Source: Microtetraspora malaysiensis
GTDB lineage: Bacteria > Actinomycetota > Actinomycetes > Streptosporangiales > Streptosporangiaceae
Assembly: GCF_001528665.1 (NCBI RefSeq)
Contig: NZ_BBYJ01000010.1
Location: forward strand, 124,001-188,000
Length of the DNA stretch: 64,000 nucleotides
Direction of reading: 5' to 3'
The notes under the pieces were generated by a model that was not told the origin of the DNA, did not search any database, and saw nothing but the letters and a program-made list of their open reading frames with translations. Shown here piece by piece: positions 32,401 to 60,898 of this stretch (its first letter is position 1; the number at the start of each line of letters is the position of its first letter). The position numbers and the translations under genes are program-made.

Positions 32401-32412
32401 GACGAACTCCTT

Positions 32413-38616: not shown

Positions 38617-38673
38617 ACGGCTCGTCTCGCCCGGAACGCCCCCGCCGGGTCCGGACGAGACGAGCCGTTCAGG
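38612..38673. terminator. Bidirectional terminator that includes both stop codons
   Basis: A perfect 18-bp stem (38612-38629 with 38656-38673) and a loop that itself pairs CCCGG with CCGGG. The TGA of lhr (38614-38616) and the TGA of the E2 gene on the other strand (38671-38669) lie opposite each other near the base of the stem. Confidence 0.9.
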
Positions 38674-39976
38674 AGACCACCTTCTCCGGTGCTTCGAGCA
38701 GCTCCTTCAACGCGCGAAGGAACAGCGCCGCGTCTCTGCCGTTGATCAGGCGGTGGTCGTAGGCGAGGCCGATGTTGGTGACGGTGCGGCTCACCACAGC
38801 TCCCGCTTCGAGCCGTAGCTCGTCCTGCGGCGCCGTCACGGCGAGGGCGCACACGTTCCCCGGGAAGATCAGCGGGATCGCGAGCGTCACGTCACCGTCA
38901 TGGTGCAGGGTCACCACGATGTTGGCCCCGGCCAGGTCGCTCTCCCGGAAGTCCCCGGTGATGGCGGCCAGGCGATACTTCATGAGCAGGTGCGCGACCT
39001 CCCGCACCGGCCGGCGGGCGGCGTCGTGGACGACCGGCACGTACAGGCCCTCGCCGGCGTCGAAGGTGACGCCCACGTTCGGAACCTCCGCGGGCATGGC
39101 ATGGCCGTCGTCGACGAGCGTGGCGAAGAACAGCGGGAACGTCTCGTGGAGCCGGGCCACCGCGCACGTCACGAGTTCGGGCAGGCTGACGGGCCGTCTG
39201 ACCTCCCTCGTCAACCCGGCCGACAGTTCGAGCGCCGCTCCGACGTCGGCCCGCACGACCGTGTACGCCGCCGGAACGGTCTCGTGTGACGTTCGGACCG
39301 CCCGAGCGACCGCCCGTTGCACCCGCGAGAGCGGGTACGGAACGCCGCCGGGGGCCGAAACGGATTCGGCACCGGACGCGGAGCCGGGCGGCCCTCCGGG
39401 CGTCTGGGCGGACGCCCCACGGGGCGGCCCATCGGAGGGGTCGGAGCGTGCCGGGCGATCGGCCACGAGCCGTTCGATGTCCGCGCGGCGGACCACGGAG
39501 ACGCCGAGACGGCGTACCTCCGCCGGATCGATGCCCAGCTCGTCGATCAGCTCCTGCGCGGGTCCGGTGACCAGCGGCCGGTGAGCGCTCCGGTCGCCGG
39601 ACACGGGCCCCGAGCCCGCCTCCGCGGCGGAGGCCGGATCGGCCTCCGGACCCGGGCCGAAGGCGTCCGGGCGCCCGTCACGGGGGTCCGCGGCGAGGGC
39701 GCTCCCGCCGGCCGTGGCATTCGGCGCGGGCGTGGGGCGCGCGTTCTCGGGGGTGAGGCGGGCGATCACGGTCCCCGGAGGGCAGTCGGCGTTCACGGGG
39801 ACGGCCTGCCAGACGAATCCGTCCTGCTCGGCGACCAGTTCCTCCGTGGCCTTCGACGTCTCCAGAACCGCGATCGGGTCGCCCGTCCCGGCCCGCTGCC
39901 CGTCCTCGACGAGCCACTCCACCAAGACGTAGGAGCTGTCGTTGCTGTTGAACTTGGGCACCCGGATGTCAGTCAC
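38669..39976 (-). CDS. Lipoyl acyltransferase (E2) of a 2-oxoacid dehydrogenase-like complex
   Basis: A 435-residue E2 subunit. Lipoyl domain at 1-80 with attachment Lys42 in LETSKATEEL; a ~60-residue Ala/Pro/Gly linker; a weak peripheral-subunit-binding domain at about 135-170 (LIDELGIDPAEVRRLGVSVV); another linker; and a catalytic acyltransferase domain at about 210-435. The active-site His is present in DHRLING, but the usual Asp of HRxxDG is Asn. The complex would move an acyl group made by E1 from lipoate to a thiol acceptor, normally CoA and here possibly the cluster's ACP. The GTG start overlaps the E1-beta stop by 8 bp. No E3 gene is in the cluster, so the housekeeping lipoamide dehydrogenase would be needed if lipoate must be reoxidised. 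Confidence 0.88.
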   Translation of the reverse strand: MTDIRVPKFNSNDSSYVLVEWLVEDGQRAGTGDPIAVLETSKATEELVAEQDGFVWQAVPVNADCPPGTVIARLTPENARPTPAPNATAGGSALAADPRDGRPDAFGPGPEADPASAAEAGSGPVSGDRSAHRPLVTGPAQELIDELGIDPAEVRRLGVSVVRRADIERLVADRPARSDPSDGPPRGASAQTPGGPPGSASGAESVSAPGGVPYPLSRVQRAVARAVRTSHETVPAAYTVVRADVGAALELSAGLTREVRRPVSLPELVTCAVARLHETFPLFFATLVDDGHAMPAEVPNVGVTFDAGEGLYVPVVHDAARRPVREVAHLLMKYRLAAITGDFRESDLAGANIVVTLHHDGDVTLAIPLIFPGNVCALAVTAPQDELRLEAGAVVSRTVTNIGLAYDHRLINGRDAALFLRALKELLEAPEKVVS

Positions 39977-41012
39977 GCAGGGCCTCCAGCACGGCGTCGT
40001 AGATGGTGGACTCCCCTACGAGGACGGCGCTCTCCAGGTGGGCGGCGGCGGGGATGACACTGCCGACGGAGTTGACCTGCGCCACCGGCCGCCGGAGATC
40101 CCGCCACATCAGGCGGTGGATCTGGTGCGCCACCTCGCTCCCCCAGGTTCCGCCCGCGGTCCCCTCTTCCACGACGAGTACGGCTCTCGCCCGGCGCAAC
40201 GCGGGCCCGAGCCGTCCCGCGCCGACGGCCCGGGCGCCGGAGTCAGTGAGGTCGAAGGGGTCGAAGGGGTACAGCCGCGAGGGCACGTACAGGCAGCAGG
40301 TGATCTCGTGGTCCAGCAGCAGGGCGCGCATCGCGCGGGTCACCCGGTCGACCATGCCGCCGGGCGCGATGATGACGCAGTCGGCCTCCTCGGGGTCGTC
40401 CAGGAAGACGCGCGCCACGCCCGGCCCGGTGTGCCCCGCCGGGATCATGTCGGAGCGGAACGGGTCGGGGACGTCGTACATCCTCCGCGTATAGAGCACT
40501 TTGTCCTCGAAGAACACGGACGGCTCGCCCGAGGCCAGCATGGCGTTCATGACCGCCCGGTTGTCGTGGAGCGGCGACATCTCGTAGACGGACAGCCCCG
40601 GCACACCGATGAAGTGCTTCTGCAGGCTCTGGCTGTGGGTCGGGCCGTACCCGCGGCCTCCACCGGTCGGGCAGCGGACGACCATCCGCATCGGGACGCG
40701 GGTGCCGTACATCGAGCACGACTTGGCGGCGAAGTTGACGATCTGGTCGAAGGCGAGGGCGACGAAGTCGCCGAACATGATCTCCACGATGGCCGTGTCG
40801 CCGCACAGCGCGAGACCGGCGGCCAGCCCGGTGATGCCCGCCTCGCTGATCGGCGTGCCGAGCACACGCCCCGGGAACCGGCTGGAGAGCCCCTTGGTGA
40901 TCTTGAACGCCCCGCCGTAGGGGTCGAGGATGTCCTCACCGATGACGTACGCGGCCGGGTCGGCCTCCAGGACGCCGTGGAGGGCCGCGTTGAGATTCTC
41001 GGCTACCCGCAT
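39969..41012 (-). CDS. E1-beta subunit (transketolase pyrimidine-domain type) of the dehydrogenase-like complex
   Basis: A 347-residue E1-beta protein: pyrimidine-binding domain (YVIGEDILDPYGGAFKITKG, then TPISEAGITGLAAGLAL with the conserved Glu) and C-terminal transketolase domain (VLVVEEGTAGGTWGSEVAHQ). It pairs with E1-alpha for ThDP-dependent decarboxylation of a 2-oxoacid or cleavage of a ketose. The ATG at 41012 has GAGGTGGG ahead; a GTG at 41021 is possible. It overlaps E1-alpha by 10 bp and E2 by 8 bp, so the three subunits are coupled. Confidence 0.9.
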   Translation of the reverse strand: MRVAENLNAALHGVLEADPAAYVIGEDILDPYGGAFKITKGLSSRFPGRVLGTPISEAGITGLAAGLALCGDTAIVEIMFGDFVALAFDQIVNFAAKSCSMYGTRVPMRMVVRCPTGGGRGYGPTHSQSLQKHFIGVPGLSVYEMSPLHDNRAVMNAMLASGEPSVFFEDKVLYTRRMYDVPDPFRSDMIPAGHTGPGVARVFLDDPEEADCVIIAPGGMVDRVTRAMRALLLDHEITCCLYVPSRLYPFDPFDLTDSGARAVGAGRLGPALRRARAVLVVEEGTAGGTWGSEVAHQIHRLMWRDLRRPVAQVNSVGSVIPAAAHLESAVLVGESTIYDAVLEALRD

Positions 41013-41929
41013 GGTTCCCACCTCGACAGCGGGCGCGCGGAGATCTCGCGGACGATCGCGGCGACCCGGTCCCGCTGGATCTCGTCGGCCCGCGCGAACC
41101 TGCCGGCATCGGCCTGCGCGTACCGGCGGTACCAGTCGTGCGCCTCGGCCTCCCGTACGGCGTCGCGGGGGCGGGTGTCGTCGCCCTTGCTGTGCGGGCC
41201 GAGCCGGTGGGTGGCGAACTCGACGACCAGCGGCCGGTTCTCCAGCCGCACCTCCGACACAAGGGGCGCCAGCTCGTCCCTGATCACTCCGATGTCGGTG
41301 GTGTCGACCCGGTGGTGGCGCGCCCCGAACGCCTCGGCGCGGGCGGCGACGGTCCCGGCCATCTGCCGGGCGGTCGGGGTGGACTGCGCGATCCCGTTGT
41401 TCTCGACGACCACGAGCAACGGGAGCCGCCAGAGCGAGGCGATGTTGAGCGCCTCGTAGACGGCGCCCTCGCCCCAGGTGCCGTCGCCGATGAAAGCGCA
41501 GGCCAGCGCGCCCGGAGAGGTGTTCTTCAGATGCAGGGCGACCCCGGTGGCCACCGGCAGGCTCTCCCCCTGGACGCCGGTGGACATGTAGCGATCGCGG
41601 TAGACATGCTGGCTGCCGCCCACACCTCGGCAGACGGCCCCTTCCCTGCCCATGATCTCGGCGAGCAGCCCGGCCGGGTCCTCGAACCGGGCGAGGTAAT
41701 GGCCGTGGCCGCGATGGTTGCTGAAGACGAAGTCGTCCGCCCCGAGCAGCGGCCGGAGGGAGACCGGCACGTACTCCTGGCCGAGGCAGGTGTGCGTGGT
41801 GCCGGCGAGCAGGCCCTGGCCGAAGAGGTCGAGCAGCGCCAGTTCGAAGTGCCTGATCAGAAGCAGCAGGTCGAGATCGCCGTCGTCCGGGAGCGGCGGG
41901 CGGGCGAGTACGGCGGACGGCTCGGTCAC
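41003..41929 (-). CDS. E1-alpha subunit (ThDP-dependent) of the dehydrogenase-like complex
   Basis: A 308-residue E1-alpha subunit with the ThDP motif GDGTWGEG (148-155) ending in NN (177-178), and the family stretches CLGQEYVPVSLRPLL and FSNHRGHGHYLARF. It is shorter than PDH E1-alpha (~350) mainly at the N-terminus. It overlaps the upstream C-PCP gene by four bases (GTGA), so it belongs to the biosynthetic operon and not to central metabolism. The substrate is unknown; precedents in natural-product pathways use such complexes to supply acyl or two-carbon hydroxyacyl units. Confidence 0.9.
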   Translation of the reverse strand: MTEPSAVLARPPLPDDGDLDLLLLIRHFELALLDLFGQGLLAGTTHTCLGQEYVPVSLRPLLGADDFVFSNHRGHGHYLARFEDPAGLLAEIMGREGAVCRGVGGSQHVYRDRYMSTGVQGESLPVATGVALHLKNTSPGALACAFIGDGTWGEGAVYEALNIASLWRLPLLVVVENNGIAQSTPTARQMAGTVAARAEAFGARHHRVDTTDIGVIRDELAPLVSEVRLENRPLVVEFATHRLGPHSKGDDTRPRDAVREAEAHDWYRRYAQADAGRFARADEIQRDRVAAIVREISARPLSRWEPCG

Positions 41930-43485
41930 CGGCCGCCGTCCACGCCGACCGGCTCCTCGCCCGCGGCGCCCTCGATGCTCCGCAGCACGCCCGCGATGGT
42001 GGGCGTGTCGAAGAAGACGTCGAGCGACACCTCGACGCCCAGCCGCTTGCGCATGCGGGCGATGATCTGGGTGATCGTCAGCGAGTGGCCGCCCAGGTCG
42101 AAGAGGTCCTCGTCGTCGCCGATCTCGTCGATGCCGAGCACTTCCTGCCAGATGGCCCTGATGTCGTCGGCCGGGCCGGGCGCTCCGGTGCGGGCCACGC
42201 CCGAGGACGCGGGGCTGTCACCCGAGAAGGTCGGTCGGTCGCCCGTCAGGATGTCTCCGATGGCGGAGTCCGGATTATTCATGATCGCTGTCAGGTCCTT
42301 CGCTGTCTGGGTGACTCCCGCGACCGCGCGCGGGTCGTACTGCATGATCACGTCGAGTCCGTCGGGGCCGTCGACGGCCTGAATGTGCAGGACACTGCGG
42401 ACGGAACCGGTGAAGACCGCCCAGTCGACCGCCGTCCGCAGCCCGGCGAACTGGGGCTCCGGCCCCCGCCTTCGGTAGCTCAGGGAGACCGGCGCCATCG
42501 CCGTACGGGGCCGGAGCCCGCGTACGGCCCGGGCCAGGGGCACCGGCCGGAACCGGTACATCAGCCGCAGTTCCGCGTGGAGCTGTGTGGCGAGTTCGGC
42601 GACGGTGGTGCGCGGCGACGGCGCCGACGCCACCGGCAGCTCGTTGACGAAGAGGCCGATGTGGTCGCGCGACTCCGGCGTCCGCGTGGACATGTCCACC
42701 GCGCACACCGGCTCCTCGTTCCCGTACGCGTACAGCAGCGCGTGCACGGAGGCGAGGAAGAGCTCGAAACGCGAGACCCGCGGCGCCCCGGGTACAGCGG
42801 CGGCGGCCGGGCCGCCGTCGAGAAGGCCGGGCACCCGGAAGGTGTGGACCGCCCCCCGCGCCGCTCCTCGCGACCGCGCCGTCCCGTCCGGCGGAGCGGA
42901 CAGGCCGGGCAGGAGCACTTCTCCGGGTTCGCGCCGGCGTTCCCGCCAGAACTCGCGGGCGTCCACGAGCAGCCTCTCCATCCGCGCGCGTTCGGCCGCC
43001 GCGTGGTCGGCGTATGTCCCGGACAGCGGGGAGATCGGGTCGCCGTTGTAGAGCGCGGCCAGGTCGCGGAGCAGGATGTCCTTGGACTCGCCGTCGAAGA
43101 CCAGATGGTGCGCGACGATGATCAGAACGTGCCGGGCGGGCGCGACCCGGACGAGCCGGAACCGGACCAGCGGCCCCGCCTCGACGTCGAACGGCCGCTG
43201 GACCTCCTCGCGGACCAGATCGTCGAGGTCTCCGGCGAGGGTCACGTCGATGCTCGGGGGCAGGCCGGGCACCTCCACCGGCACGCCGTCGTGCTCCCGG
43301 ATCGCGGTCGCCAGGACGGGATGGCGGTCGGCCAGCACCTCACACGCCTCGATCAGCCGGGGGGCGTCCAGATGCCCCTCGAAGGTCACCAGCAGCGGCA
43401 TCCGGTAGGCCGTACCCGCCCGGCCCATGCGCTCGGTGATCCACATGCCGACCTGGGCGGGTGACGCCGGCGTCGGGACGTTCAT
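41926..43485 (-). CDS. NRPS condensation-PCP didomain protein
   Basis: A 519-residue NRPS fragment without an adenylation domain. The condensation domain (about 5-420) has the intact active site HHLVFDG (His126-His127, Asp131, Gly132). After a linker comes a peptidyl carrier domain with phosphopantetheine Ser468 in LGGHSLT. It needs another enzyme to load its PCP, most simply the acyl-AMP ligase encoded just upstream, with which it overlaps by 4 bp (ATGA). It would form an amide or ester between two carrier-bound units. A longer open frame upstream is only an alternative reading of the ligase gene. Confidence 0.92.
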   Translation of the reverse strand: MNVPTPASPAQVGMWITERMGRAGTAYRMPLLVTFEGHLDAPRLIEACEVLADRHPVLATAIREHDGVPVEVPGLPPSIDVTLAGDLDDLVREEVQRPFDVEAGPLVRFRLVRVAPARHVLIIVAHHLVFDGESKDILLRDLAALYNGDPISPLSGTYADHAAAERARMERLLVDAREFWRERRREPGEVLLPGLSAPPDGTARSRGAARGAVHTFRVPGLLDGGPAAAAVPGAPRVSRFELFLASVHALLYAYGNEEPVCAVDMSTRTPESRDHIGLFVNELPVASAPSPRTTVAELATQLHAELRLMYRFRPVPLARAVRGLRPRTAMAPVSLSYRRRGPEPQFAGLRTAVDWAVFTGSVRSVLHIQAVDGPDGLDVIMQYDPRAVAGVTQTAKDLTAIMNNPDSAIGDILTGDRPTFSGDSPASSGVARTGAPGPADDIRAIWQEVLGIDEIGDDEDLFDLGGHSLTITQIIARMRKRLGVEVSLDVFFDTPTIAGVLRSIEGAAGEEPVGVDGGR

Positions 43486-44954
43486 GGGCGCGCCCGCAGG
43501 GCCCGCTTGTCCACCTTGCCGCCGGCGTTCCTGGGCAGGGCGTCCACGGTGACGATCCGGGAGGGGATCTCGTGCTGGGCCAGCCGCTCCGCCAGGAAGG
43601 CGCGCAGCGCCGCGAGGGACACGTCGCCGTCTTCCGGCGCACCCTCGCTCGACCGGTCCGGCCCGGGAGCGCGCGGGACGACGGCCGCCGCCACGGCCAT
43701 GCCGAGCACGGGGTGCGGGAGGCCGTAGGCGGCCGCCTCCGCCACGGCAGGGTGGGCGTGCAGCGCCTCCTCGACCTTGAGCGTGGAGACCTTGAACGCT
43801 CCCGACTTGATCACGTCGCTCTCCCTGTCGACCAGGTAGAGGTAACCGTCCTCGTCGATGTAGCCGAGGTCCCCCATCCGGATCCAGCCGCCCCGGAAGA
43901 CGTCGGAGGCCGCGTCGGAGTCGTTGTAGTACGAGCGGGGCACGGCGGGCGAGCGCATCCACACCTCGCCGGTCTCTCCCGTGGCGACCGCCTCTCCTTC
44001 CGGCGAGGCGATCCGTACGGCGCCGCCCGCCGCCGCCCTGCCGACGGACCCCGGCCGCTCCGGGTCGACGATCATGATCGTCTGGGCGGGCGCGGCCTCG
44101 GTCGAGGTGTAGTAGTTCGCGATCGTCGCGTTGGGGAACATCCCCGCCAGCCGGGTGGCGACCGCCGTGGGCAGCGGCGCCGCGGCGGAGCCGAGCAACA
44201 GGACGCTCGACAGGTCGTGCTCCTCGCGGCGGCCCAGCAGTTCGGCCGCCATCGCGGGGACCAGGAACACCGTGCCCGCACGGTGGTCCGCGATGAGCCG
44301 GGCGAAACGGTCGGGGGTGAACCGGGGCAGGGTGACCACGGCCGGATGCGCGTTGAGCGCGTTGACGAGCATCATCTGCCCCGCGTTCGTCCCGATCGGG
44401 AAGGCGTGGACCAGGTGCCGCGAGTGGGCGAACATCCGCATCCCGGGACGGCGCGGGTTGAGCACGGCGCCGAAGGCCAGGTTGGCGTGCGTGGCGGCGA
44501 CGCCCTTGGCCGTACCCGTGGTGCCCGACGTGTAGAGGATCTGCGCGACGGCGTCCGGCTCGTTCGGCAGTCCGGGCGGCTCCGCCGAGGCCCGGGGCAG
44601 GTCGGCGAGTTCGCCGATCGTCATGGAGATCGAGCAGTGTGCCGCGATCCGCGCGACGTCCGCCGCCGGTGCGCGGTCCGCGAGGGGCACGGCCACCGCA
44701 CCGGCCTTGAGCACTCCCATGAACGCGATCGCGTAGTCGATCCAGCGCGCGGCGGGGAAGATCAGCCCGATGCGCTCTCCGCGTCCGATCCCCATGGAGA
44801 GCAGGGCGCCCGCGACCTCGTTCGAGCGCCGCTCCCACTCCTCGAAGGTCAACTCGCCGGTTCCCTGGACGATCATGGCGACCTTCCCGGGCTCCGCGGC
44901 GGCCCGGGCCGCGAGCAGGGCGGGAAGCGCCGGCGTTTCGAGCGCGGTCCTCAC
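43482..44954 (-). CDS. Acyl-AMP ligase / stand-alone adenylation enzyme
   Basis: A 490-residue ANL-superfamily enzyme: P-loop YTSGTTGTAKG, the A5-type YYTSTEAAP, A7-type MGDLGYIDEDGYLYLVDR, and the C-terminal catalytic Lys in NAGGKVDK. At the position where amino-acid-activating domains have Asp to hold the alpha-amine, the sequence is HAFPIGTNAG, so the substrate is probably a carboxylic acid without an alpha-amino group (aliphatic, aromatic or hydroxy acid). It starts at a GTG at 44954, first in the leftward operon, divergent from the NRPS-MFS gene. It likely loads the PCP at 41926 or the free ACP at 50589. Confidence 0.85.
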   Translation of the reverse strand: MRTALETPALPALLAARAAAEPGKVAMIVQGTGELTFEEWERRSNEVAGALLSMGIGRGERIGLIFPAARWIDYAIAFMGVLKAGAVAVPLADRAPAADVARIAAHCSISMTIGELADLPRASAEPPGLPNEPDAVAQILYTSGTTGTAKGVAATHANLAFGAVLNPRRPGMRMFAHSRHLVHAFPIGTNAGQMMLVNALNAHPAVVTLPRFTPDRFARLIADHRAGTVFLVPAMAAELLGRREEHDLSSVLLLGSAAAPLPTAVATRLAGMFPNATIANYYTSTEAAPAQTIMIVDPERPGSVGRAAAGGAVRIASPEGEAVATGETGEVWMRSPAVPRSYYNDSDAASDVFRGGWIRMGDLGYIDEDGYLYLVDRESDVIKSGAFKVSTLKVEEALHAHPAVAEAAAYGLPHPVLGMAVAAAVVPRAPGPDRSSEGAPEDGDVSLAALRAFLAERLAQHEIPSRIVTVDALPRNAGGKVDKRALRARP

Positions 44955-45012
44955 AGAACGACTCCGAACGATCCGATGAATGATTCTCAGCCGCCGACCT
45001 GTCCGGCGCTTT

Positions 45013-45033
45013 ACTGGAAAGATTCTTTCCAGT
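45013..45033. promoter_or_regulatory. Operator-like palindrome near the acyl-AMP ligase start
   Basis: ACTGGAAAG and CTTTCCAGT, perfect 9-bp arms with a 3-base centre, 59-79 bp ahead of the ligase GTG. It could also form a hairpin, but its place in a divergent promoter favours a protein-binding site. Confidence 0.6.
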
Positions 45034-45170
45034 TATGTCGGGACCGGATTCTGACACGCCGACGCGACAGCCGACAAGGGGGCGATCAGATCACCCGGCA
45101 GCACCGGTCGCACCGCCGCCGAAGGGGTTGTGGCCGAAAGGATCTGATGCCACACTTGACCTCCCGATAA

Positions 45171-45199
45171 CTGATAAGAAACTTTCCTATTCTTTTCAG
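45171..45199. promoter_or_regulatory. Operator-like inverted repeat near the NRPS-MFS start
   Basis: CTGATAAGAA and TTCTTTTCAG form 10-bp arms with one mismatch and a 9-base centre that includes CTTTCC, also found in the palindrome at 45013-45033. It lies 60-88 bp ahead of the NRPS start. Confidence 0.5.
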
Positions 45200-45258
45200 C
45201 CGACATCCGCCTCGGCCGTTTCGGGCTGCGGTCATTCGATCCGTTGGAGGCGTACGCC

Positions 45259-48200: not shown

Positions 48201-50544
48201 CGCGGCCTGGTGTGACGTGCTCGGCCTGCGGCGGGTGGGCGTGCTCGACGACTTCTTCGATCTCGGCGGCCATTCGCTGCTGGCCACCCGGGTCGTGGCC
48301 CGGCTGCGTCGCGAGCTGCCGCCCGGAAGTCATCCGATCGCCCTCATGGACCTCTTCCAGCGGACCACCGTCCGCGAGCTGGCCGAGCTCGCGCGAAGCG
48401 GCGGCGGCCCGCGCGGCCTGCTGTACGAGCTGACCCCGCCGCGCGCGGGGCGGGTCGCCTCGACCCTGGTCTGCGTGCCGTACGGCGGGGGGAGCGCGGT
48501 CGTCTACCAGCCGCTCGCCGACGCGCTGCCGGAGACGTGGGCGCTCTTCTCGGTCGCCGTTCCGGGGCACGATCTCGGGCTGGCCGAGGACCCGCGTCCG
48601 CTGGGGGAGGTCGCGGAGCGATGCGTCGCGGAGATCACGGAGAAGGTGGCCGGCCCGCTCGTGCTGTACGGCCACTGCGGGGTCGGCGGCGCGCTGACCG
48701 TCGAGATCGCCCGGAGGCTGGAGGCGGCGGGGAGGGCGGTGGATGCGATCTACCTGGGCGGCGTCTTCCCCTTCGCCCGTCCGGTGAAGGGGCTGCTCGG
48801 GCGGTGGGCCGCGCTGACCCGGCTGGAGCGGCTGCGCAGCGACCGCGCGGACGTCAACTGGCTGACCGCGCTCGGCGCCGACCTGTCGGACCTGGACGAC
48901 GAGCAGAAGGCGTTCGTCGTGCGGAACATGCGGCGGGACGCCCGCGAGGCCGAGGACTACTTCACCCGGCTGATCGACGAGGGCACCGACCGGCTGTCCG
49001 CACCGATCATCTCGGTGGTCGGCGAGTACGACCCGGCGACGGACTACTACGAGGAGCGCTATCGGGAATGGGGGTTCCTCACTGACACGACCGCCCTGGT
49101 CGTCCTGGACGAAGGCGGCCACTATTTCCTGAAATATCGGGCGAATGAGCTGGCGGCCGTCGTCACCTCCCCCCATCGGGGGCTCTCCGAGAGCGACCCC
49201 CCGAGCGACGCGGAGCGGGACCCCCGAAGCAGGACAACCACCACCGGCCAAACCACGGGCCAAACCATCGGCCACACCGCCGGACCCGACCCCTCGGTGC
49301 GCCGGTTCCTCGCGGTCGCCCTCGGTCAGATGGCCTGCCTGATCGGCTCCACGCTGACCGAGTTCGCCCTCCCGGTGTGGGCGTACCTCAAGACCGGCTC
49401 CATGGCGCAGTATGCCGTGCTCCAGATCCTCGCCGTGATCCCGGGCATCCTGGCCGCGCCCCTCGCGGGCGCGATCGTGGACCGGTCGAGCCGCCGTACG
49501 GTGATGATCGCCGGAAACGTGGCCGCGCTCACGATCCAGACGGTCGCCGCGCTGCTCCTGTGGGCCGGCCGCCTCGGCATCGGGCCCCTGTACGTCCTGC
49601 TCACCGCGTTGTCGGTCGCGTTGACCTTCCAGCGGCTGGCGTTCACGTCGGCCGTGCCGCAGATCGTGCCGAAGCGGTATCTCGGGCACGCGAACGGCGT
49701 CACGCAGACCACCCTCGGCGTCGCGCAGTTCATCGCGCCGCTCGCCGCCGTGGGCCTGCTGTCGGCCGCGGGGCTGGAGGGCATCCTCGTCCTCGACGTG
49801 GCGGGGCACGTGTTCACGCTGGTCGTTCTCGCGCTCGTGGCCTTCCCCGCGACGATGGCGCACCGCCGCAGGGAGAGCGTCGGCCGGGAGATCGCGGAGG
49901 GGTTCCGGCTGTCGATGGGCAACCGGAGCTTCCGCGCCATGGTGATCTTCTTCGCCCTGCTGTCGCTCGGCCTCTCGCCGGTGTTCATGATGTACTCGCC
50001 CCTCGTGCTGTCCTTCGGCACGCTGACCGACGCGGGCGTGATCGCGGTCGTCGCGGGCGCGGGGGCGGTGTGCGGTGGCCTGACGATGGCCCTCTGGGGC
50101 GGCCCCGCCCGCGGGCGGATGCGCGCGATGCTGCTGACCACGGCGTTCATCGCCGCGTCCTGCCTGGTCGTGGGGCTCGACACCTCGCTGGTCCTGATCG
50201 GCGTGGGCGCCTTCGGGGTCTCGTACGGCCTGGCCCTGGTCAACGGCGTCTACGCGACGATCATCCAGGTGAAGGTGCCGCAGCGTTTCCACGGCCGGGT
50301 GTTCGCGCTCAATCAGATGGTCGCCTGGTCGACGATCCCGCTGGGGGTCGGCGTGATCGCCCCGCTCGGCACCCGGCTGCTCGGCGACATCGGCGCGATG
50401 TACCTGGTGTTCGCGGCGTACATCGCGGCCGTCACCCTCGGCGCGCTCCGCACCCGCGTCCTGGCCCGCTTCGACGCCGAGGTGCCGGACGCCACGCCCG
50501 ACGACCTCGTCGGACTCGAACGGCGATCGGGCGGATCGGCATGA
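45259..50544 (+). CDS. Single-module NRPS (C-A-PCP-TE) fused to an MFS exporter
   Basis: A 1761-residue fusion. Condensation domain ~5-430 with HHIAGDG (His143-His144, Asp148). Adenylation domain ~470-950 with YTSGSTGRPKG, NHYGPTE and GKVDR; the pocket residues I read are D-F-T-K-I-G-H-I-G-K, closest to the published aspartate code. PCP with Ser1006 in LGGHSLL. Thioesterase ~1060-1300 with GHCGVGG, so nucleophile Cys1140 in place of Ser, plus Asp1258 and His1288. After a ~40-residue Thr/Ser-rich linker, residues ~1345-1750 form an MFS transporter with about 12 helices (MACLIGSTLTEFALPVW to GALRTRVLARF). The TTG at 45259 has GGAGG eight bases ahead. Its stop overlaps an ATG reading into the ACP. 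No MbtH gene is nearby. Similar NRPS/MFS fusions exist in actinomycete annotations, but the products are mostly unknown. Confidence 0.93.
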   Translation: MTLAISDIPLSLGQERLWFLHELNPGDASYNICVTERLRGPLDPVALEHALGAVIRRHDVLRTRYPAVDGRPVQVVEDGVPALERVTAPDEERAAELVAELTNQPFDLAHGPVIRARLITLGDTGNETPTAAEAEHVLVVVLHHIAGDGWSLGVLFRELAAHYAAFLDGAPPAVPDLPIRYADHAIRQRATDDTRERDRSLAHWKERLAGVPVLALPTDRPRPRVRSSRGECVTLRLPASLTEGLTRLARAERVTPFMLLLTAFQTQLSRYSGQPDFCVGSPVAAREDEETEHLIGFFLNTLAIRADLSGDPTFRELLRRTRSTVVEALVHQDTPFDRLVSELGVQRDLSRTPVFQTQFSLRNETNDRLSLAGVVAERYDPGFRQAKFDLSLEIVPAGDTLDAFFVYSADLFHRETVERFAANFATLLRSVTGDPETRVSELALLAPAEHALLDGWSRCPDVPEPPAPTLPEMVAATARRSPTTVAVRYGADELTYGELEERAGGLAGRLRDLGVGPDVLVGIRLEQSLDQAVAILAVLKAGGAYVPLDPEQPGERLRHMLDGVAVLIAGTDGVQEGPESATAAPPPGFTGPVVDPDETGTGDAGAPPSPDDLAYVIYTSGSTGRPKGVAVQHRQVMNYLADVRDRFGVAEGGSFALLQSLTFDFGMTVFYLALMTGGTLHLLPSRISAPELAARMPEIDVLKMTPSHLGALAADVAARDLLPRRLLILGGEGSSWEWARDLAALGACRVVNHYGPTEATIGVTTYDVEAGAEPTGPVTPIGRPLGHARAFVLDAHLRPVPVGVPGELCVGGDRLARGYLGRPDLTAEAFVESERHGRIYRTGDLARWLPDGTLEFLGRRDLQVKIRGYRVELGEVDEALRRCRGVGHAVTDTRHGELVAYLVAEDGFAAADLPGVAELRRDLGARLPDYMVPTRYTWLDTLPLKGHGKVDRAALPDPEGDRPDQEVPFEPPADPVEEIIAAAWCDVLGLRRVGVLDDFFDLGGHSLLATRVVARLRRELPPGSHPIALMDLFQRTTVRELAELARSGGGPRGLLYELTPPRAGRVASTLVCVPYGGGSAVVYQPLADALPETWALFSVAVPGHDLGLAEDPRPLGEVAERCVAEITEKVAGPLVLYGHCGVGGALTVEIARRLEAAGRAVDAIYLGGVFPFARPVKGLLGRWAALTRLERLRSDRADVNWLTALGADLSDLDDEQKAFVVRNMRRDAREAEDYFTRLIDEGTDRLSAPIISVVGEYDPATDYYEERYREWGFLTDTTALVVLDEGGHYFLKYRANELAAVVTSPHRGLSESDPPSDAERDPRSRTTTTGQTTGQTIGHTAGPDPSVRRFLAVALGQMACLIGSTLTEFALPVWAYLKTGSMAQYAVLQILAVIPGILAAPLAGAIVDRSSRRTVMIAGNVAALTIQTVAALLLWAGRLGIGPLYVLLTALSVALTFQRLAFTSAVPQIVPKRYLGHANGVTQTTLGVAQFIAPLAAVGLLSAAGLEGILVLDVAGHVFTLVVLALVAFPATMAHRRRESVGREIAEGFRLSMGNRSFRAMVIFFALLSLGLSPVFMMYSPLVLSFGTLTDAGVIAVVAGAGAVCGGLTMALWGGPARGRMRAMLLTTAFIAASCLVVGLDTSLVLIGVGAFGVSYGLALVNGVYATIIQVKVPQRFHGRVFALNQMVAWSTIPLGVGVIAPLGTRLLGDIGAMYLVFAAYIAAVTLGALRTRVLARFDAEVPDATPDDLVGLERRSGGSA

Positions 50545-50588
50545 GAAGCGCCGGGATGTTCGCACGGAACCGCACAGAAAGGGACGAA

Positions 50589-50825
50589 ATGCTGAAGGAA
50601 CGGCTGGCCGAGCTGGTGTCGGAGTCGTGCGACGGCGAGATCAGCAAAGCCGAGGCCCTGGACGCGACCGTGCCGCTGTCCTACCTCGGCGTCACCTCAC
50701 TGGCCCAGATGCGCCTGATCGACGCGATCGAACGCGAGTACGGCGTGGAGGTCGACCTCGGTGGCGACGTCTCCTTCCTCGACAGCGTCGACGGGCTGGC
50801 CACGTGGCTCGCGGCGGCACGGTGA
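50589..50825 (+). CDS. Free-standing acyl/peptidyl carrier protein
   Basis: A 78-residue carrier protein, MLKERLAELVSESCDG through to GLATWLAAAR. The phosphopantetheine Ser37 lies in LGVTSL, with Thr instead of the usual Asp before it. The ATG at 50589 is preferred because AAAGGGA precedes it and it gives the standard ACP length; an ATG at 50541, overlapping the NRPS stop by four bases, is the alternative and adds 16 residues. It overlaps the next gene by 4 bp (GTGA). It may carry the acyl group produced by the E1/E2 enzymes or by the acyl-AMP ligase. Confidence 0.87.
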   Translation: MLKERLAELVSESCDGEISKAEALDATVPLSYLGVTSLAQMRLIDAIEREYGVEVDLGGDVSFLDSVDGLATWLAAAR

Positions 50826-52126
50826 TCTCCTTCGCGGGCACGCGCTCGGGCACCGCGCCGCTCACGTGGGGCCAGCGCGCCATCTGGCAGGCCATCCTGC
50901 GCACGGCGCCCGACGACCATTACTTCAACTTCGGCCGGGTGGTCGAGGTGCCGAGAGGCGCCCGGCCCGCCTCGGCCGCACAGGTGTCGCGCGGGATCGG
51001 CCTGCTCGTGGAGCGGCACGAGGCACTCCGCACACTCGTCGGGCCGGGCCCGTGCCAGGACCTGCGCGACCGCGGCGAGCTGCCGATCCGGGTCGCGGCG
51101 GACGCCGACCCGGCCGCGCTCCTGGCCGAGCTGTCCGCCACCGCCTTCGACTACGCCGAGGAGTGGCCGCTCCGGGTGGCGCTCGTGACCACGGGCGGAC
51201 CCCTCCGCGCGGAGGAGGTCACGCACGTGGTGCTCGTCTTCTGCCATCTGGCCGCGGACGGGCACGGCGCCGAGCAGGTCGTCCGCGACCTGCGGCTGTT
51301 CCTCCTGCGCGGCGCGATCCCCGGCGACCCGCCGCGGCAGCCCCGCGACCTGGCGCGGTGGCAGGGGTCCCCGGACGGGAGGAGGCAGGCGGCCGGCGCC
51401 GCCGCCCTCTGGGAGCGCGAGTACGGCAGGATCCCGCCCACCATGTTCGGCCGGCCGTCCGGCGTCCCCGAGCGGCCGCCCATCCGGCGGGCCGTCCTCA
51501 CGTCGCCGGCCGTCCACCTGGCCACCCAGCGGCTCGCCCTGCGGTACGGCGCCAGCACCTCGACGGTCCTCCTCACGGCGGTGACCGCGCTCGTCGGCGA
51601 GGTGACCGGACACGAGAACGTCGCCGTCCTGCCGATCGTGAGCAACCGCTTCGGCCGGGACACCCGGACCGCGGTGACCACTCTCTCCCAGGAAGGGCTG
51701 TTCGTCCTCGGCTCCGCCCCCCGCGCCGGACTCGGGGGCGCCTTCCCCGACCTGCTCGCCGCGGCCCGCCCGGCCGTGCTGCGGGCCTACCGGAGCGGGT
51801 ACCACGATCCGGACGACCGGGAGCGGATCACCGCCGAGGCCGGCCGGGAACGCGGCGTCCCCGTCCACCCGTACTGCTGCTTCAACGACATGCGGTTCGC
51901 GGAGCGGGTGGAGGAGCACGACGACGAGCTGATCCGGCGGGCCCGCGCGGAGACCTCGATGTCCTGGCCTCTCAGCCAGAACGAGCTCAACTGCCGGTTC
52001 TGCGTCCACGTGAGCGAGGCGACGCGGATCTCGGTCACGGCCGACACCCGATGGCTTTCGGCGGCGGACGTCGAGCGATACCTGCTCGATCTGGAGCGGC
52101 TGCTCGTCGAGGAGGCCCTGCGGTGA
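50822..52126 (+). CDS. Free-standing condensation-domain protein
   Basis: A 434-residue condensation-domain homologue, beginning MISFAGTRSGTAPLTWGQRA at a GTG. The active-site motif reads CHLAADG (Cys141, His142, Asp146, Gly147): the first His of HHxxxDG is Cys, but the catalytic second His and the Asp-Gly are kept, so it may be active. The C-terminal half (ELNCRFCVHVSEATRISVTAD) completes the chloramphenicol-acetyltransferase-like fold. It is coupled by 4-bp overlaps to the ACP upstream and the DMFase-like gene downstream. It may join the ACP-bound unit to the PCP-bound chain, or form an ester or amide off-line. Confidence 0.83.
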   Translation: MISFAGTRSGTAPLTWGQRAIWQAILRTAPDDHYFNFGRVVEVPRGARPASAAQVSRGIGLLVERHEALRTLVGPGPCQDLRDRGELPIRVAADADPAALLAELSATAFDYAEEWPLRVALVTTGGPLRAEEVTHVVLVFCHLAADGHGAEQVVRDLRLFLLRGAIPGDPPRQPRDLARWQGSPDGRRQAAGAAALWEREYGRIPPTMFGRPSGVPERPPIRRAVLTSPAVHLATQRLALRYGASTSTVLLTAVTALVGEVTGHENVAVLPIVSNRFGRDTRTAVTTLSQEGLFVLGSAPRAGLGGAFPDLLAAARPAVLRAYRSGYHDPDDRERITAEAGRERGVPVHPYCCFNDMRFAERVEEHDDELIRRARAETSMSWPLSQNELNCRFCVHVSEATRISVTADTRWLSAADVERYLLDLERLLVEEALR

Positions 52127-54090
52127 CCGCTCGCGTGCGCGCATACGCGACCCCCACCTCGTGCGGGCAGGGCGAGTCGCTGGAGTTCCGCCTGGAGGGC
52201 CCGCCCGAGATGGGCCCCGAGATGAGTGTCGCCGTCCATGACGCGACCTGCGACCGGCTCATGCTGACGACGTCCGTACAGGGGCCGTCGTGGCGGCTCG
52301 ACGTGCCGCCGGACTGGCCCAGTTCGCTCTACCGGGCCAGGTTCGTCGCCGGCCCTCCCGAGCCGGACGTGTCCGTGCCCCGCGCCTCCGGCGAGCTTCC
52401 CGGCACGGCGACGTCCTCGGACGACGAGGTCTACTTCGTCGTACGGCAGGCCGTCCCGGGCACCACGTCGCCGATCCTCGTCTCGATCCCGTTCGCCACA
52501 TGGCAGGCCTACAACCGGGCGGGCGTCCCCGGGGAGAGCGTGTACTGGACCGAGCAGCCGGACCGCGCGGCGCGCGTGTCGTTCGACCGGCCCGGCGGCG
52601 GGCCCCCGCCCGAGCGCTGGGAGGACGGCCTGCTGCGATGGCTCGGCCCGGCGGGGTACACCGTGGAGTACTGCTCGGGCCTGGACCTCGATCTCGGCCT
52701 GCTGTCCCGCTACCGGCTGCTCGTCGTCAACGGGCACGACGAGTACTGGACGGCCGGGATGCGCGACGCCTGCGAGGAGTTCGCCCGGCGCGGCGGGAAC
52801 ATCGCCTTCCTCTCCGGGAACACCTGCTGGTGGCAGATCCGCATGGAGGGCCGGACCATGGTCTGCCACCGCGACCCGGTGAGCGACCCGGTCGAGGACC
52901 CCCGCCTGACCACGGTGGAGTGGTCGAGCGCGCCGGTCTCCCGCCCGGAGAACGCGCTGACCGGGGTGAGCTTCCGCAACGGAGCGGGCACGTGGGGGCC
53001 GTCCATGCCGCTCATGCGGGAGGAGCCGTACACCGCGAGGTTCGCCGCGCACTGGGTCTTCGAGGGCACCGGGCTGACGGACGGCGACAAGTTCGGCCAG
53101 GGTGCGCTCGGCTACGAGACCGACGCGGCCGAGTTCACCGAGATCATGGGGGTGCCCCGGGTCACCTGCCGCGACGGCACCCCGCCGTCGTTCGTCGTGC
53201 TCGCGACGGCCGACCTGCGGCACTGGAGCACCTGCGGGCAGGGCGGCTGGGCCACCATGGGCGTCTTCTCCCTGGGCCGCGGCACAGTCTTCAACGCCGC
53301 CACGGTCAACTGGGGCAACACCCTGCACGACCCGGTCGTGAACCGGATCACGCGCAACGTCCTGGACCGGCTCGCACGACCGGCGCGGCCACGCTGGGAA
53401 GTGATCGGCCCGGCCGCAGACATCCGCGCGCTCGCCGCCTGGCGCTCCACCCTGTACGCAGTGGGCGCCGACGGCGGCCTCCTGACCCGCGAGCTGTGCG
53501 GACAGAACCTGCCCTGGCGGCCGATCGGCTCCGGCGGCGGGGTGATCTGCCTGGACACGCCGCGGGAGGCCGCCGCCGGCCTCGGCACCGGCCTGTACGG
53601 CGTGACCGCGGACGGGATGCTGCGCTATCGCGAGGCGGAGGCGGGTCCCGCGGAATGGACGGACGTGGGACCGGCTCCTCGGGGCACGATCGCCCTCGCG
53701 GTGCATGACGGCGCGTTCTTCGCCGCCACGTCGGGCGGCCGCCTGTGGACGGCGCCCTTCGGCGACATGGCCGCCGACGCGCCCGTCTGGCGCGACATCG
53801 GCGACTCAGGCGGCGCGATCTGCCTGAGCGGGAGCAACGGCCGTCTCTACGCCCTGGGCGCGGACGGGCGGGTCCGCACCCGCCTCCCGGTGACCGGGCC
53901 GGAGCCCTGGTCGGACCTCTGCGGGGCGCCGGGGGCGGCGGTGCTCGCCGCCCACGCGGGCCTGATGGTGTCGGCCGGTGGAGGCCGGGAACTGATGTGG
54001 CGGACCGCCCAGAAGCCGGTCGTTCAGAAGCCGGTCGTTCAGAAGCCGGTCGTTCAGAAGCCGGCCGCTCAGAAGCCGACCGGGCCGTAG
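52123..54090 (+). CDS. N,N-dimethylformamidase beta-like protein with beta-propeller-like tail
   Basis: A 655-residue protein in two parts. Residues about 1-420 follow the N,N-dimethylformamidase large (beta) subunit pattern: PFATWQAYNRAG, RVSFDRPGG, RYRLLVVNGHDEYWTAGMRD and GGNIAFLSGNTCWWQ. That enzyme is an iron-dependent amidohydrolase; I cannot assign the metal ligands here with certainty. Residues about 425-630 are repeats of ~40 residues (LYAVGADGGLLTREL, LYGVTADGMLRYRE, LYALGADGRVRTRL) like a tectonin-type propeller. The tail is a run of QKPVV repeats. There is no signal peptide. The GTG overlaps the previous stop. It could cut or form an amide in the product; this is an inference from operon position. 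Confidence 0.78.
   Translation: MTARVRAYATPTSCGQGESLEFRLEGPPEMGPEMSVAVHDATCDRLMLTTSVQGPSWRLDVPPDWPSSLYRARFVAGPPEPDVSVPRASGELPGTATSSDDEVYFVVRQAVPGTTSPILVSIPFATWQAYNRAGVPGESVYWTEQPDRAARVSFDRPGGGPPPERWEDGLLRWLGPAGYTVEYCSGLDLDLGLLSRYRLLVVNGHDEYWTAGMRDACEEFARRGGNIAFLSGNTCWWQIRMEGRTMVCHRDPVSDPVEDPRLTTVEWSSAPVSRPENALTGVSFRNGAGTWGPSMPLMREEPYTARFAAHWVFEGTGLTDGDKFGQGALGYETDAAEFTEIMGVPRVTCRDGTPPSFVVLATADLRHWSTCGQGGWATMGVFSLGRGTVFNAATVNWGNTLHDPVVNRITRNVLDRLARPARPRWEVIGPAADIRALAAWRSTLYAVGADGGLLTRELCGQNLPWRPIGSGGGVICLDTPREAAAGLGTGLYGVTADGMLRYREAEAGPAEWTDVGPAPRGTIALAVHDGAFFAATSGGRLWTAPFGDMAADAPVWRDIGDSGGAICLSGSNGRLYALGADGRVRTRLPVTGPEPWSDLCGAPGAAVLAAHAGLMVSAGGGRELMWRTAQKPVVQKPVVQKPVVQKPAAQKPTGP
54010..54084 (+). 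repeat. 15-bp tandem repeat at the 3' end of the DMFase-like gene
   Basis: Five copies in tandem of CAGAAGCCGGTCGTT, the first three identical and the last two diverged. They encode the (QKPVV)n tail. Copies 4 and 5 reach into the 3' end of the convergent dipeptidase gene. Confidence 0.9.
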
Positions 54091-54713
54091 ATCGCGGCGG
54101 AGGCGCCCGTCGTCATGGCCCAGTAGCGGTCGCCGTAGGACCAGTGCCACCACTCGGTCGGGTAGTTCACCAGCCCGACGGCCTCCAGGGCGGCCCCGAG
54201 GACCTTGCGGTTCTGCCGGGCGTCGTCGCCGATCCCGGGCGCGTCGGTGTAGCAGGCGCCGCCGCTCTGCTCGGGGTTGTCGTTCACCGCGGTGCCCATG
54301 TCGAGTTCGACGCCGTCGTCGCCGCACAGCGTGAGATCCACCGCCGCGCCGGCGGTGTGCGGCGCGACCTCGATCGGCGAGACGTACCGGCTGGCGGCGC
54401 TGTGCAGCTCCTCGGGCGACATTTCGGGAAACGCCGCCCGGAGCTCGTCCTTGTAGTCCTCGAAGTACGTACGCTGCAACGCGGGCGGGCGATATCCCTC
54501 CACGACCACGATGTGGTACCCGGCCGGCAGCAGGGCCTGCGCGTCCTCAAGCCGGGCCAGCACCCCTTCCCGCAGGTGCGCGTACGCCCCGGCGTCGTCG
54601 GCGAGACGACCGTCCACGCGGAGCCTGCCTCGGACGTCGTGGAGCGGCTCGCCGCACTCCTCGACGGGCAGGGAGGTCACGCGGGGGTCGGAGATGAGGA
54701 CGATGTCAGACAT
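54069..54713 (-). CDS. D-alanyl-D-alanine dipeptidase (VanX family)
   Basis: A 214-residue zinc dipeptidase that splits D-Ala-D-Ala. The zinc ligands His119 and Asp126 (APHTAGAAVDLTL) and His190 (EWWHW), the catalytic Glu187 and substrate Arg75 (EGYRPP) all match the family. No signal peptide, so cytosolic as in VanX. Without vanH/vanA partners it more likely serves cell-wall turnover than vancomycin resistance. Its last 22 bp overlap the DMFase-like gene of the convergent biosynthetic operon, in the repeat region; the C-terminal PVGF is thus encoded opposite the QKP repeats. The ATG at 54713 is preferred over a TTG two codons earlier. Confidence 0.9.
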   Translation of the reverse strand: MSDIVLISDPRVTSLPVEECGEPLHDVRGRLRVDGRLADDAGAYAHLREGVLARLEDAQALLPAGYHIVVVEGYRPPALQRTYFEDYKDELRAAFPEMSPEELHSAASRYVSPIEVAPHTAGAAVDLTLCGDDGVELDMGTAVNDNPEQSGGACYTDAPGIGDDARQNRKVLGAALEAVGLVNYPTEWWHWSYGDRYWAMTTGASAAIYGPVGF

Positions 54714-55940: not shown

Positions 55941-55987
55941 CGGCCGCGTCTCCTCTCGTCACGATCCGCTAACGGCATGTTTTTTTT

Positions 55988-56011
55988 AATAAAGTTTATT
56001 GTTAGTTTAGC
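55988..56011. promoter_or_regulatory. Operator-like element between ROK regulator and sugar ABC operon
   Basis: AATAAAGTTTATT (55988-56000) is a perfect palindrome around one base. The stretch 55991-56011 also shares 16 of 21 positions with 62188-62208 ahead of the second ROK gene: AAAGTTT, then TG, AG and TTAGC at identical spacing. It lies 51 bp from the ROK start. Confidence 0.65.
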
Positions 56012-56100
56012 CCCAGCCGCCCCGGAGGCAAGCGATCAGGCCACGGGACGCGCCAACCGAGCGCCACCCCGACGTGAAGCCGGGAAGGGAGAAACCCAAC

Positions 56101-57435: not shown

Positions 57436-57439
57436 CGCC

Positions 57440-59313: not shown

Positions 59314-59365
59314 ACCCGCCCCTCACCACCGCGCGCTGAACCATCAGCGCCATCCACGCCATCTC

Positions 59366-59396
59366 GTACGGCTCCGGCATATCGCGGGAGCCGTAC
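59366..59396 (+). terminator. Intra-operon hairpin between permease and GH3 gene
   Basis: GTACGGCTCC and GGAGCCGTAC pair perfectly (10 bp) around an 11-base loop, 53 bp after the permease stop and just ahead of the GH3 start. Probably a partial terminator or processing element. Confidence 0.55.
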
Positions 59397-59406
59397 CACG
59401 ACAGTC

Positions 59407-60879: not shown

Positions 60880-60898
60880 CTCCAGGAACAGCATGGAC

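Follow-up and report, generated by a model that had tools for sequence, protein, structure and literature searches.

A candidate glycolicacyl-type orphan NRPS cluster with an exporter-fused assembly enzyme in Microtetraspora malaysiensis

Closest described systems

The glycolicacyl systems of quinocarcin and naphthyridinomycin, the genes of the latter being named NapB/D, belong to a tetrahydroisoquinoline NRPS context. The related sets QncL/M/N, from quinocarcin, and SclQ1-4, from scleric acid, are reported in the sections cited to form a glycolicacyl-carrier (PMC6335953). The locus described here resembles the quinocarcin and naphthyridinomycin systems in this proposed carrier formation (PMC6335953, PMC5384830, in the parts cited), but those systems have other domain fusions. 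The renieramycin proteins RenH/RenI (MK748464) share its E1 motifs and E2 layout; their E1-alpha and E1-beta are fused, however, and they stand in a P450 and alkaloid NRPS context.

The closest characterised pathway that we found is that of scleric acid (scl), (2-(benzoyloxy)acetyl)-L-proline, in Streptomyces sclerotialus. According to the sections cited, SclQ1-4 (ACP, E1a, E1b and E2) are required for scleric acid by knock-out, and an ATP-grasp enzyme, not a C domain, is proposed to attach the acyl group after release (PMC6335953, PMC13307308). The glycolyl-proline intermediate was still detected in the sclQ1-4 deletion (PMC6335953), so such genes may not be the only source of glycolate. As in scl, our locus has a carrier with E1-alpha, E1-beta and E2 for a putative glycolic acid unit, one C-A-T module, a thioesterase (TE) and an MFS exporter, and its predicted product would likewise be an acylated glycolyl unit on an amino acid (PMC6335953, PMC13307308). 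The scl pathway differs in using Pro, whereas the code here is Asp-like, in using the ATP-grasp enzyme SclG in place of an AMP ligase and C domains, in having separate TE and MFS proteins that are fused here, and in its dedicated benzoate genes; a DMFase-like protein and a free C domain are not mentioned in the cited parts of the scl descriptions (PMC6335953, PMC13307308). By A-domain code and Pfam, neither a Pro-activating C-A-T module nor an ATP-grasp ligase nor benzoate genes were found among our nine genes. The original prediction had presented the gene combination as unusual and as matching no characterised pathway known to have exactly this set; since close parallels such as scleric acid exist, the underlying logic is less singular than was proposed, and uniqueness of the nine-gene set itself is ruled out by its recurrence in the loci of relatives. 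Dynaplanin was set aside as unrelated, going by the part of its description cited (PMC9239090).

Organisation and spread of the nine genes

The window, the whole stretch of 64,000 nucleotides of M. malaysiensis DNA that was analysed, contains nine genes in two divergent operons with overlapping ends, between an Lhr helicase gene (33763-38616) on the left and a VanX-like M15 peptidase gene (54069..54713, minus strand; PF01427) on the right. ORFs and neighbours confirmed this predicted layout. All nine ORFs are open and coding by GC position (GC-based gene caller). On the minus strand lie an E2-like acyltransferase (38669..39976; PF00364 and PF00198), the TPP enzyme E1-beta (39969..41021; PF02779/PF02780 and motif table), E1-alpha (41003..41929; PF00676 and E1-alpha+beta tree), a C-T didomain (41926..43485; PF00668 and PF00550) and an acyl-AMP ligase (43482..44954; PF00501/PF13193). 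The plus strand encodes a C-A-T-TE-MFS protein of 1766 aa, an NRPS-exporter fusion (45244..50544; Pfam), a free carrier protein (50541..50825; PF00550 and gene call), a free-standing divergent condensation domain (50822..52126; PF00668, E 1.1e-8) and a DMFase-like amidohydrolase (52123..54090; PF20254). Pfam bore out the domain labels of the prediction, whose description of a compact divergent NRPS-like biosynthetic cluster is supported, and revealed a thioesterase inside the 1766-aa NRPS that had been missed. With these starts, neighbours overlap by 4 to 19 bases inside each operon; the gene caller gave alternative starts for the carrier (50589) and the free C domain (50804), and the end of the VanX-like gene overlaps the DMFase-like gene by 22 bases. 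The divergent intergenic region holds a palindrome, ACTGGAAAG-ATT-CTTTCCAGT (45013..45033), which is a candidate operator and, with 0-1 mismatch between the arms, was found in three of the nine relatives' intergenic regions tested (L114, L116, L120). Scanning this region for sigma-70 promoters gave no sites.

We surveyed 345 genomes of the order, taking genes less than 25 kb apart on one contig as linked and using GC-based gene calls made in this analysis for the relatives. E1-alpha was present in 102 of the 345 genomes, and E1 and the DMFase-like gene were both present in 73 (Fisher p about 2e-45, kinship ignored). Co-occurrence of the two operons elsewhere had been set beforehand as a refutation test, and 67 of 79 DMFase-like genes lay less than 25 kb from an E1-alpha of this kind. 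These counts speak against the reading that the E1/E2 operon and the T-C-DMFase operon are separate pathways sharing a locus by chance, which we regard as very improbable even though DMFase-like genes occur without E1 in 4/345 genomes, E1 without a DMFase-like gene in 29/345, and 12/79 DMFase places lack an E1 linked in this sense. The cluster genes are found together across many genera, and because the same genes recur jointly, their grouping is not due to chance. The cluster is real and widely shared among actinomycetes; its components have known relatives, and the family itself is an orphan. BLAST picked out a carrier in 47 of 60 E1 regions, and Pfam detected one in L125 and L126 as well. 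BLAST detected an NRPS-type gene in 56 of these 60 regions and none in four (L149, L155, L159, L172). The Planotetraspora clusters (L037-L039) have no Asp module at the corresponding place.

The E1/E2 genes and the proposed loading of the carrier

The E2 protein consists of an N-terminal lipoyl domain (Lys42 in ETSKA), a linker region and a catalytic domain with DHRxxNG. In its family, 56/56 rows keep both the lipoyl Lys and the DHR-motif His, and 55/56 keep DHRxxNG; the motif and tree counts cover E2 rows of 300-560 aa and E1 rows of set lengths. E1-beta carries the glycolicacyl-type motifs RGYGPTHSQ and IMFGDF, and E1-alpha carries SNHRGHGH, GGSQH and HSKGDDTR; these motifs are common to RenH and a Paenibacillus cluster and absent from PDH/acetoin E1. 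In the E1-alpha+beta tree a bipartition (100/99) separated 61 rows from 4 and grouped RenH away from PDH/acetoin E1, with RenH as the only reference from a described pathway and with RenH, the Paenibacillus E1 and the outgroups on long branches, of which the program warned. As in glycolicacyl systems, TPP-dependent E1-alpha and E1-beta and a lipoyl E2 stand in a biosynthetic cluster with no E3 among the nine genes, and a dedicated carrier adjoins them, C-T overlapping E1-alpha. Two full-score E3 genes are located elsewhere in the same genome.

The original prediction had called the E1/E2 set a 2-oxoacid-dehydrogenase-like complex. As a true branch of that kind, it would bring an acetyl or branched acyl group, formed by oxidative decarboxylation of pyruvate or a branched 2-oxoacid, onto a carrier, following the logic of pepteridine or pristinamycin; the domain names and best NCBIfam hits (PDH subunits) agree with this, and the E2-T-C of pepteridine is a precedent for direct carrier loading, which also speaks for the glycolyl reading. 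However, these hits are far below the cut-offs (E1-alpha best 185.6 vs 393.85 bits), the E1 groups with RenH and not, as would be expected of PDH/BCKDH, with PDH/acetoin-type E1, and an acetyl group on C-T would offer the C domain no nucleophile, whereas a glycolyl group has one. As the E1 belongs with glycolicacyl-type E1, the 2-oxoacid dehydrogenase reading is unsupported and in our judgement unlikely, and PDH-type acetyl loading was abandoned as first choice on the NCBIfam scores, motifs and tree. Nothing relevant on E1/E2 or keto-acid dehydrogenase genes with C and T domains was found in the open-access literature searched.

The C-T protein, with the condensation motif HHLVFDG, provides the presumed glycolyl carrier. 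It gave hits in 59 loci, of which 42 passed the length filter (25 C-T, 17 C-A-T) and 17 were dropped by length. E1-alpha was found in the same locus in 21 of the 25 C-T loci and in three more (L033, L036, L046) through contigs of equal length in differently named loci; the remaining locus ends early. In the 17 Streptomyces, Kitasatospora and Catellatospora clusters, a C-A(Gly-like)-T protein replaces C-T and no E1 lies within the locus (0/17); such an E1 is absent altogether from 14 of these genomes, and in three a 65% copy lies away from the locus. The C domains sampled from C-T and C-A-T proteins (11 + 10) form one group. This swap supports the glycolyl-loading model, and the exchange of E1/E2 for a glycine-like A domain could serve as a natural model for how assembly lines change an ester into an amide.

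Release, export and the proposed pathway

The NRPS comprises C (residues 12-458), A (481-960), T (984-1049), TE (about 1065-1330; 48436..49233, plus strand, supported by BLAST relatives and PDB match) and MFS (1355-1712; 49306..50379, plus strand; PF07690, E 2e-17, with a TIGR00900 match below cut-off). Pfam places the MFS domain behind the TE in one ORF, and the predicted NRPS-exporter fusion is supported; no report of an NRPS/TE/MFS-domain fusion was found in the open-access literature searched. The A-domain code is DFTKIGHIG, which we take to be Asp-like and which agrees with the aspartate derivative expected in the original prediction. The codes cover 9/10 positions and were obtained through BLAST alignments.

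The TE has the triad Cys1145-Asp1263-His1293, with Asp in the ObiF/SulM position II. Its closest PDB match was ObiF1 (6n8e; E 6.7e-38, 133.8 bits), and weaker matches were 6vap (86.3), SulM (71.6) and RifR (52.8 bits). Among 104 distinct BLAST relatives including the window (duplicates removed, selection by BLAST alone), the position-II Asp and the His were present in 104/104 and Asp at position I in none; the nucleophile was Cys in 96, Ser in 7 and a gap in one. An MFS-like tail in the same ORF (hydrophobic, at least 7 segments) followed 96 of the 104 TEs, 92 with Cys and 4 with Ser. L229 has no tail, probably because the examined stretch stops there. An MFS-like tail is lacking in three distant Ser-TEs (L238-L240), whose code is unassigned, and the nucleophile of L242 is Cys.

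Instead of hydrolysing, the cysteine TE might cyclise the terminal residue (beta-lactone from Ser, thiolactone from Cys, anhydride or imide from Asp or Asn) and give an electrophilic product, which we consider rather unlikely. The window TE shares the Cys nucleophile and the position-II Asp 30 residues before His with ObiF1 (obafluorin) and SulM (sulfazecin), as far as the cited parts describe them (PMC6668435, PMC11298585), and ObiF1 is its best match. Almost every terminal code ahead of a Cys-TE with a tail is Asp-, Asn-, Ser- or Cys-like (of 63 Cys-TE codes in the first sample, 5 were unreadable and 7 partial, with one of two letters only), and the only change to Ser in the MFS-tailed set goes with a Lys-like code, a link that counts as one event because its four sequences form one clade. 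As to a beta nucleophile on the terminal residue, the code is Asp-like in the window and Ser/Cys-like in some relatives. With Asp, however, the ring would be an unstable anhydride; moreover, the spacing from C to Asp is 118 instead of 108, Cys also occurs with one Orn-like and one unassigned code, and position-II triads also occur in the hydrolytic RifR. Unlike in ObiF1 and SulM, a fused MFS follows the TE here and the terminal residue is Asp-like, ring closure being hypothetical. Distinctly unlikely is the wider idea of an uncharted large actinomycete family of glycolyl- or glycyl-capped amino acids, closed into rings by an ObiF-type cysteine TE and passed to a fused exporter, with the DMFase-like protein as a deprotecting or immunity amidohydrolase. 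If true, a single chain would select, activate, close and export an electrophilic metabolite.

Our preferred reading is glycolyl loading followed by release. From the domains, kinship, conservation and linkage observed directly, we think it moderately likely that this orphan NRPS cluster is of glycolicacyl type, with an acyl-O-glycolyl-aspartate pathway whose substrates, order and product are deduced from sequence. The probable role of the cluster is to build a small molecule from an acid, a two-carbon glycolic acid unit and aspartate and to send it out through the exporter fused to the assembly enzyme. On the TPP of E1-alpha/beta, a ketose (or hydroxypyruvate) would give up a two-carbon unit, which the lipoyl arm of E2 would oxidise and hand as glycolyl to the C-T carrier, a housekeeping E3 recycling the lipoyl group. 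The acid, loaded by the AMP ligase on the free carrier, would be joined to the glycolyl hydroxyl as an ester by the C domain of C-T, and the C-A-T module would couple the acyl-glycolyl unit to aspartate. The cysteine TE would then release the product for export by the fused MFS domain. The expected core is acyl-O-CH2-CO-Asp, a scleric-acid-like acyloxyacetyl amino acid. The cluster thus unites three rare features, namely the proposed glycolyl loading from central metabolism, a cysteine TE of the ring-closing type and a TE-fused exporter, and the predictions that follow are glycolate in the product and a thiol-trappable ring. The best PDB match of the AMP ligase was the fatty-acid-CoA ligase FadD5; of the 36 regions having the ligase, 35 also have the C domain of C-T, and no acid-making genes were found among the nine genes. 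The free C domain has the motif CHLAADG, with H142 and D146 kept in 23/23 rows, and brings the number of C domains to three, one more than three building blocks require. Together with the DMFase-like amidohydrolase it probably makes and/or cuts a further amide, in tailoring or protection.

DMFase holds its iron by two Tyr and one Glu. The DMFase-like protein, named as such in the original prediction and supported by PF20254 and by its fold, has an amidohydrolase part like DMFase and N-acetyl-beta-phenylalanine acylase (residues 1-422), followed by a C-terminal beta-propeller (422-635). Its AlphaFold model (pLDDT 87) matched the DMFase and acylase chains with Z 32.5-33.2. The likeness to DMFase (6lvb) and N-acetyl-(R)-beta-phenylalanine acylase (8huy) extends over residues 1-422, but identity is about 22-24% and the propeller is extra. 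Glu207 is invariant in 28 rows and aligns to DMFase Glu521; the pairing of Tyr130 (at least 90% kept) with Tyr399 is confined to a segment scored -0.5, and the counterpart of Tyr440 lies beyond the aligned region. Y440A and E521A mutants of DMFase are named in PDB titles. Nothing relevant on DMFase together with NRPS clusters was found in the open-access literature searched. The neighbouring VanX-like gene is the only match in the genome. It is present in 37 of 80 loci of the DMFase-like gene, also in L070 and L101, whose loci lack the biosynthetic genes.

Gene set, neighbours and distribution

As the original prediction had described, nine ORFs lie in two divergent operons. E2, E1-beta, E1-alpha, a condensation-carrier protein (C-T) and an AMP ligase are on the minus strand (38669-44954) and the C-A-T-thioesterase-MFS NRPS, a carrier, a free C domain and the DMFase-like protein on the plus strand (45244-54090). 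All nine were open and had positive coding scores, with overlaps of 4-19 bases at the given starts. Pfam confirmed the predicted domain labels and added a thioesterase (TE) between the carrier and the MFS part of the large NRPS. The predicted placement also held, with Lhr on one side and the VanX-like M15 peptidase (54069-54713), adjacent to the DMFase-like gene, on the other. This peptidase was present in 37 of 80 DMFase loci among the matches listed, and even at relatives' loci where other cluster genes were absent (L070, L101). The adjoining ROK regulators, transporter solute-binding protein and permease, and GH3 glycosidase (54780-62143) are probably unrelated to the cluster, and a flavohaemoprotein-like gene with globin and FAD/NAD domains (31219-32433) lies upstream of Lhr. 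Between the operons, a palindrome, ACTGGAAAG-ATT-CTTTCCAGT (45013-45033), is a candidate operator that was kept in three of nine relatives tested (L114, L116, L120). One further occurrence of its core pattern was seen in L145.

Scanning 84,980 species genomes with the DMFase-like protein gave at least 80 loci, with Microtetraspora fusca as the nearest named relative (94% identical). Among the matches listed, Streptosporangiaceae genera made up more than half of the loci, the remainder being mainly Streptomyces, Kitasatospora, Dactylosporangium and Catellatospora, with two remote MAG matches at 32%; a free-C match was found in 70/80 and a C-T match in 59/80 of these loci, many of which are incomplete. 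In 345 genomes of the order (matches at E 1e-80 or better), E1-alpha of the window kind occurred in 102 and the DMFase-like gene in 77; both were present in 73, the DMFase-like gene only in 4, E1 only in 29 and neither in 239. The expectation that the two operons co-occur in other genomes was borne out, as E1 lay within 25 kb of 67 of the 79 DMFase-like places. The cluster represents a real and conserved pathway family that is uncharacterised. Its parts are of kinds already known, and we know of no earlier instance of their combination, of the TE-MFS fusion or of the glycolyl/glycyl swap described below.

Probable glycolyl loading and its apparent exchange for glycine activation

Motifs of the SNHR.HGH, GGSQH, GVQG, HSKGDDTR, PYGGAFK, MF[GS]DF and RGYGPTHS type are common to the E1 family, RenH of the renieramycin plasmid and a Paenibacillus PKS cluster, whereas PDH- and acetoin-type E1 differ at these motifs. 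In a tree built from 65 rows of concatenated E1, for which the program warns of long branches, 61 rows (the family, RenH and Paenibacillus) fell on one side with support of 100/99. The lipoyl lysine was kept in 56/56 E2 of the family, and 55/56 had DHRxxNG at the site of DHRxxDG in Shinella PDH E2, in contrast to DHRxxTG in renieramycin RenI. Two full-score E3 genes are located elsewhere in the M. malaysiensis genome. According to PMC6335953, SclQ1-4 are the ACP, E1-alpha, E1-beta and E2 of scleric acid and relatives of QncN/L/M, for which it describes the formation and attachment of a glycolicacyl unit as demonstrated; a glycolyl-proline intermediate was still detected after sclQ1-4 deletion. 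For pepteridine, whose cluster has no E3, PMC5384830 proposes that E2 primes the T domain directly. Based on these motifs, tree, precedents and E3 genes, the C-T carrier is taken as the putative glycolyl carrier.

The Paenibacillus polymyxa plasmid PKS cluster (L174, 11432-20306), with ACPs, E1-alpha, E1-beta, E2 and a thioester reductase, is a possible glycolyl-type unit outside Actinomycetes. At L126, Pfam showed E1-alpha followed by a carrier and by a single ORF that fuses E1-beta with E2; L170 and L171 have the same arrangement, judged from gene sizes and BLAST.

A length filter left 42 of the 59 DMFase-anchored loci with a C-T match among the matches listed; 25 have C-T and 17, in Streptomyces, Kitasatospora and Catellatospora, have C-A-T with glycine-like codes (DI[VL]QLGV[IV]W in 12, near variants in the others). 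E1-alpha lay within 21 of the 25 C-T loci and, for L033, L036 and L046, on a further stretch that comes from a contig of equal length, the stretch of L104 being incomplete. No E1 was found within any of the 17 C-A-T loci; 14 of their genomes had no such E1 anywhere and three had a 65% copy outside the locus. Sampled C domains of C-T and C-A-T (11 + 10) formed one well-supported group, separate from the NRPS C and free C domains. From this absence of E1 and the common C-domain group, it seems that one and the same position is served either by glycolyl loading or by glycine activation. The swap does not hold throughout Streptomycetaceae, because L056, L098 and L105 retain E1 of the window kind.

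The E1/E2 clusters L118, L121 and L138 showed neither the AMP ligase nor the C domain of C-T. L118 and L121 retain the carrier, E1/E2, NRPS and tailed TE. In L118 a GT4-type glycosyltransferase separates the carrier from E1 and a GH1 enzyme follows E2, which hints that the glycolyl hydroxyl may be glycosylated in such clusters instead of acylated. A second E1/E2 NRPS cluster in the M. malaysiensis genome (L113, G000:C9:276000-295999) has GH1 and aldose epimerase genes and no DMFase-like gene within this 20 kb stretch.

Proposed assembly, release and the DMFase-like protein

In the best-supported order, glycolyl would first be placed on the C-T carrier and an acid loaded on the free carrier, after which the C domain of C-T would form the ester between them, an amide would be formed with Asp, the TE would release the product and the fused MFS would export it. 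The AMP ligase and the C domain of C-T go together in 35/36 regions with the ligase. The free C domain should be active, since His142 and Asp146 were kept in 23/23. With its carrier it resembles VibH-type amide synthases, and amide synthesis of this kind would match the amidohydrolase of the same operon.

The A-domain code, DFTKIGHIG, is presumably Asp-like, and the TE triad is Cys1145, Asp1263 and His1293. BLAST across the fetched loci gave 104 distinct TE sequences, the window included, with Cys (96), Ser (7) or a gap (1, a remote stand-alone match) as nucleophile; Asp at position II of the triad and His occurred in 104/104, and Asp at the alternative position I in 0/104. According to PMC6668435 and PMC11298585, the TEs of ObiF and SulM, closing a beta-lactone and a beta-lactam, have Cys and position-II Asp in common, as does the window TE. 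A nine-sequence TE profile ranked ObiF1 (6.7e-38), 6vap (2.0e-23), SulM (6.4e-19) and RifR (3.4e-13).

In 96 of the 104 (92 Cys, 4 Ser), the ORF continues beyond the TE with at least seven hydrophobic segments. As we read them, the codes preceding the 63 distinct first-sample Cys-TEs, all tailed, were Asp-like (39), Asn-like (3), Cys-like (3), Ser-like (13; 6 full, 7 partial) or unread (5); in the second sample, with 29 tailed Cys-TEs, 26 codes were Asp-, Asn-, Ser- or Cys-like, one was Orn-like, one unread and one unassigned. The tailed Ser-TEs (L206, L209, L210, L212), a single clade with MFS-like tails, follow Lys-like codes and are a natural control for the proposed ring closure by the Cys-TEs. 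This pattern of nucleophiles and codes fits such closure without proving it; a ring with Asp would be an anhydride, and closure there is doubtful. TEs of the window kind were found at five places in the M. malaysiensis genome and, at E 1e-25, in 30 of 394 genomes sampled from the class. Three further NRPS ORFs of the genome (L214, L218, L219; contigs G000:C45 and G000:C13) have a Cys-TE with a hydrophobic MFS-like tail.

In the AlphaFold model of the DMFase-like protein (pLDDT 87.3), residues 1-422 match N-acetyl-beta-phenylalanine acylase and DMFase (Z 32.5-33.2). Glu207, invariant in 28 rows, pairs with DMFase Glu521, and Tyr130 pairs with DMFase Tyr399 in an insignificant alignment segment only. 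An active metal amidohydrolase is plausible. The separate C-terminal beta-propeller (53386-54027) matches glutaminyl cyclases best (Z 18.6), with other propellers at or below this value.
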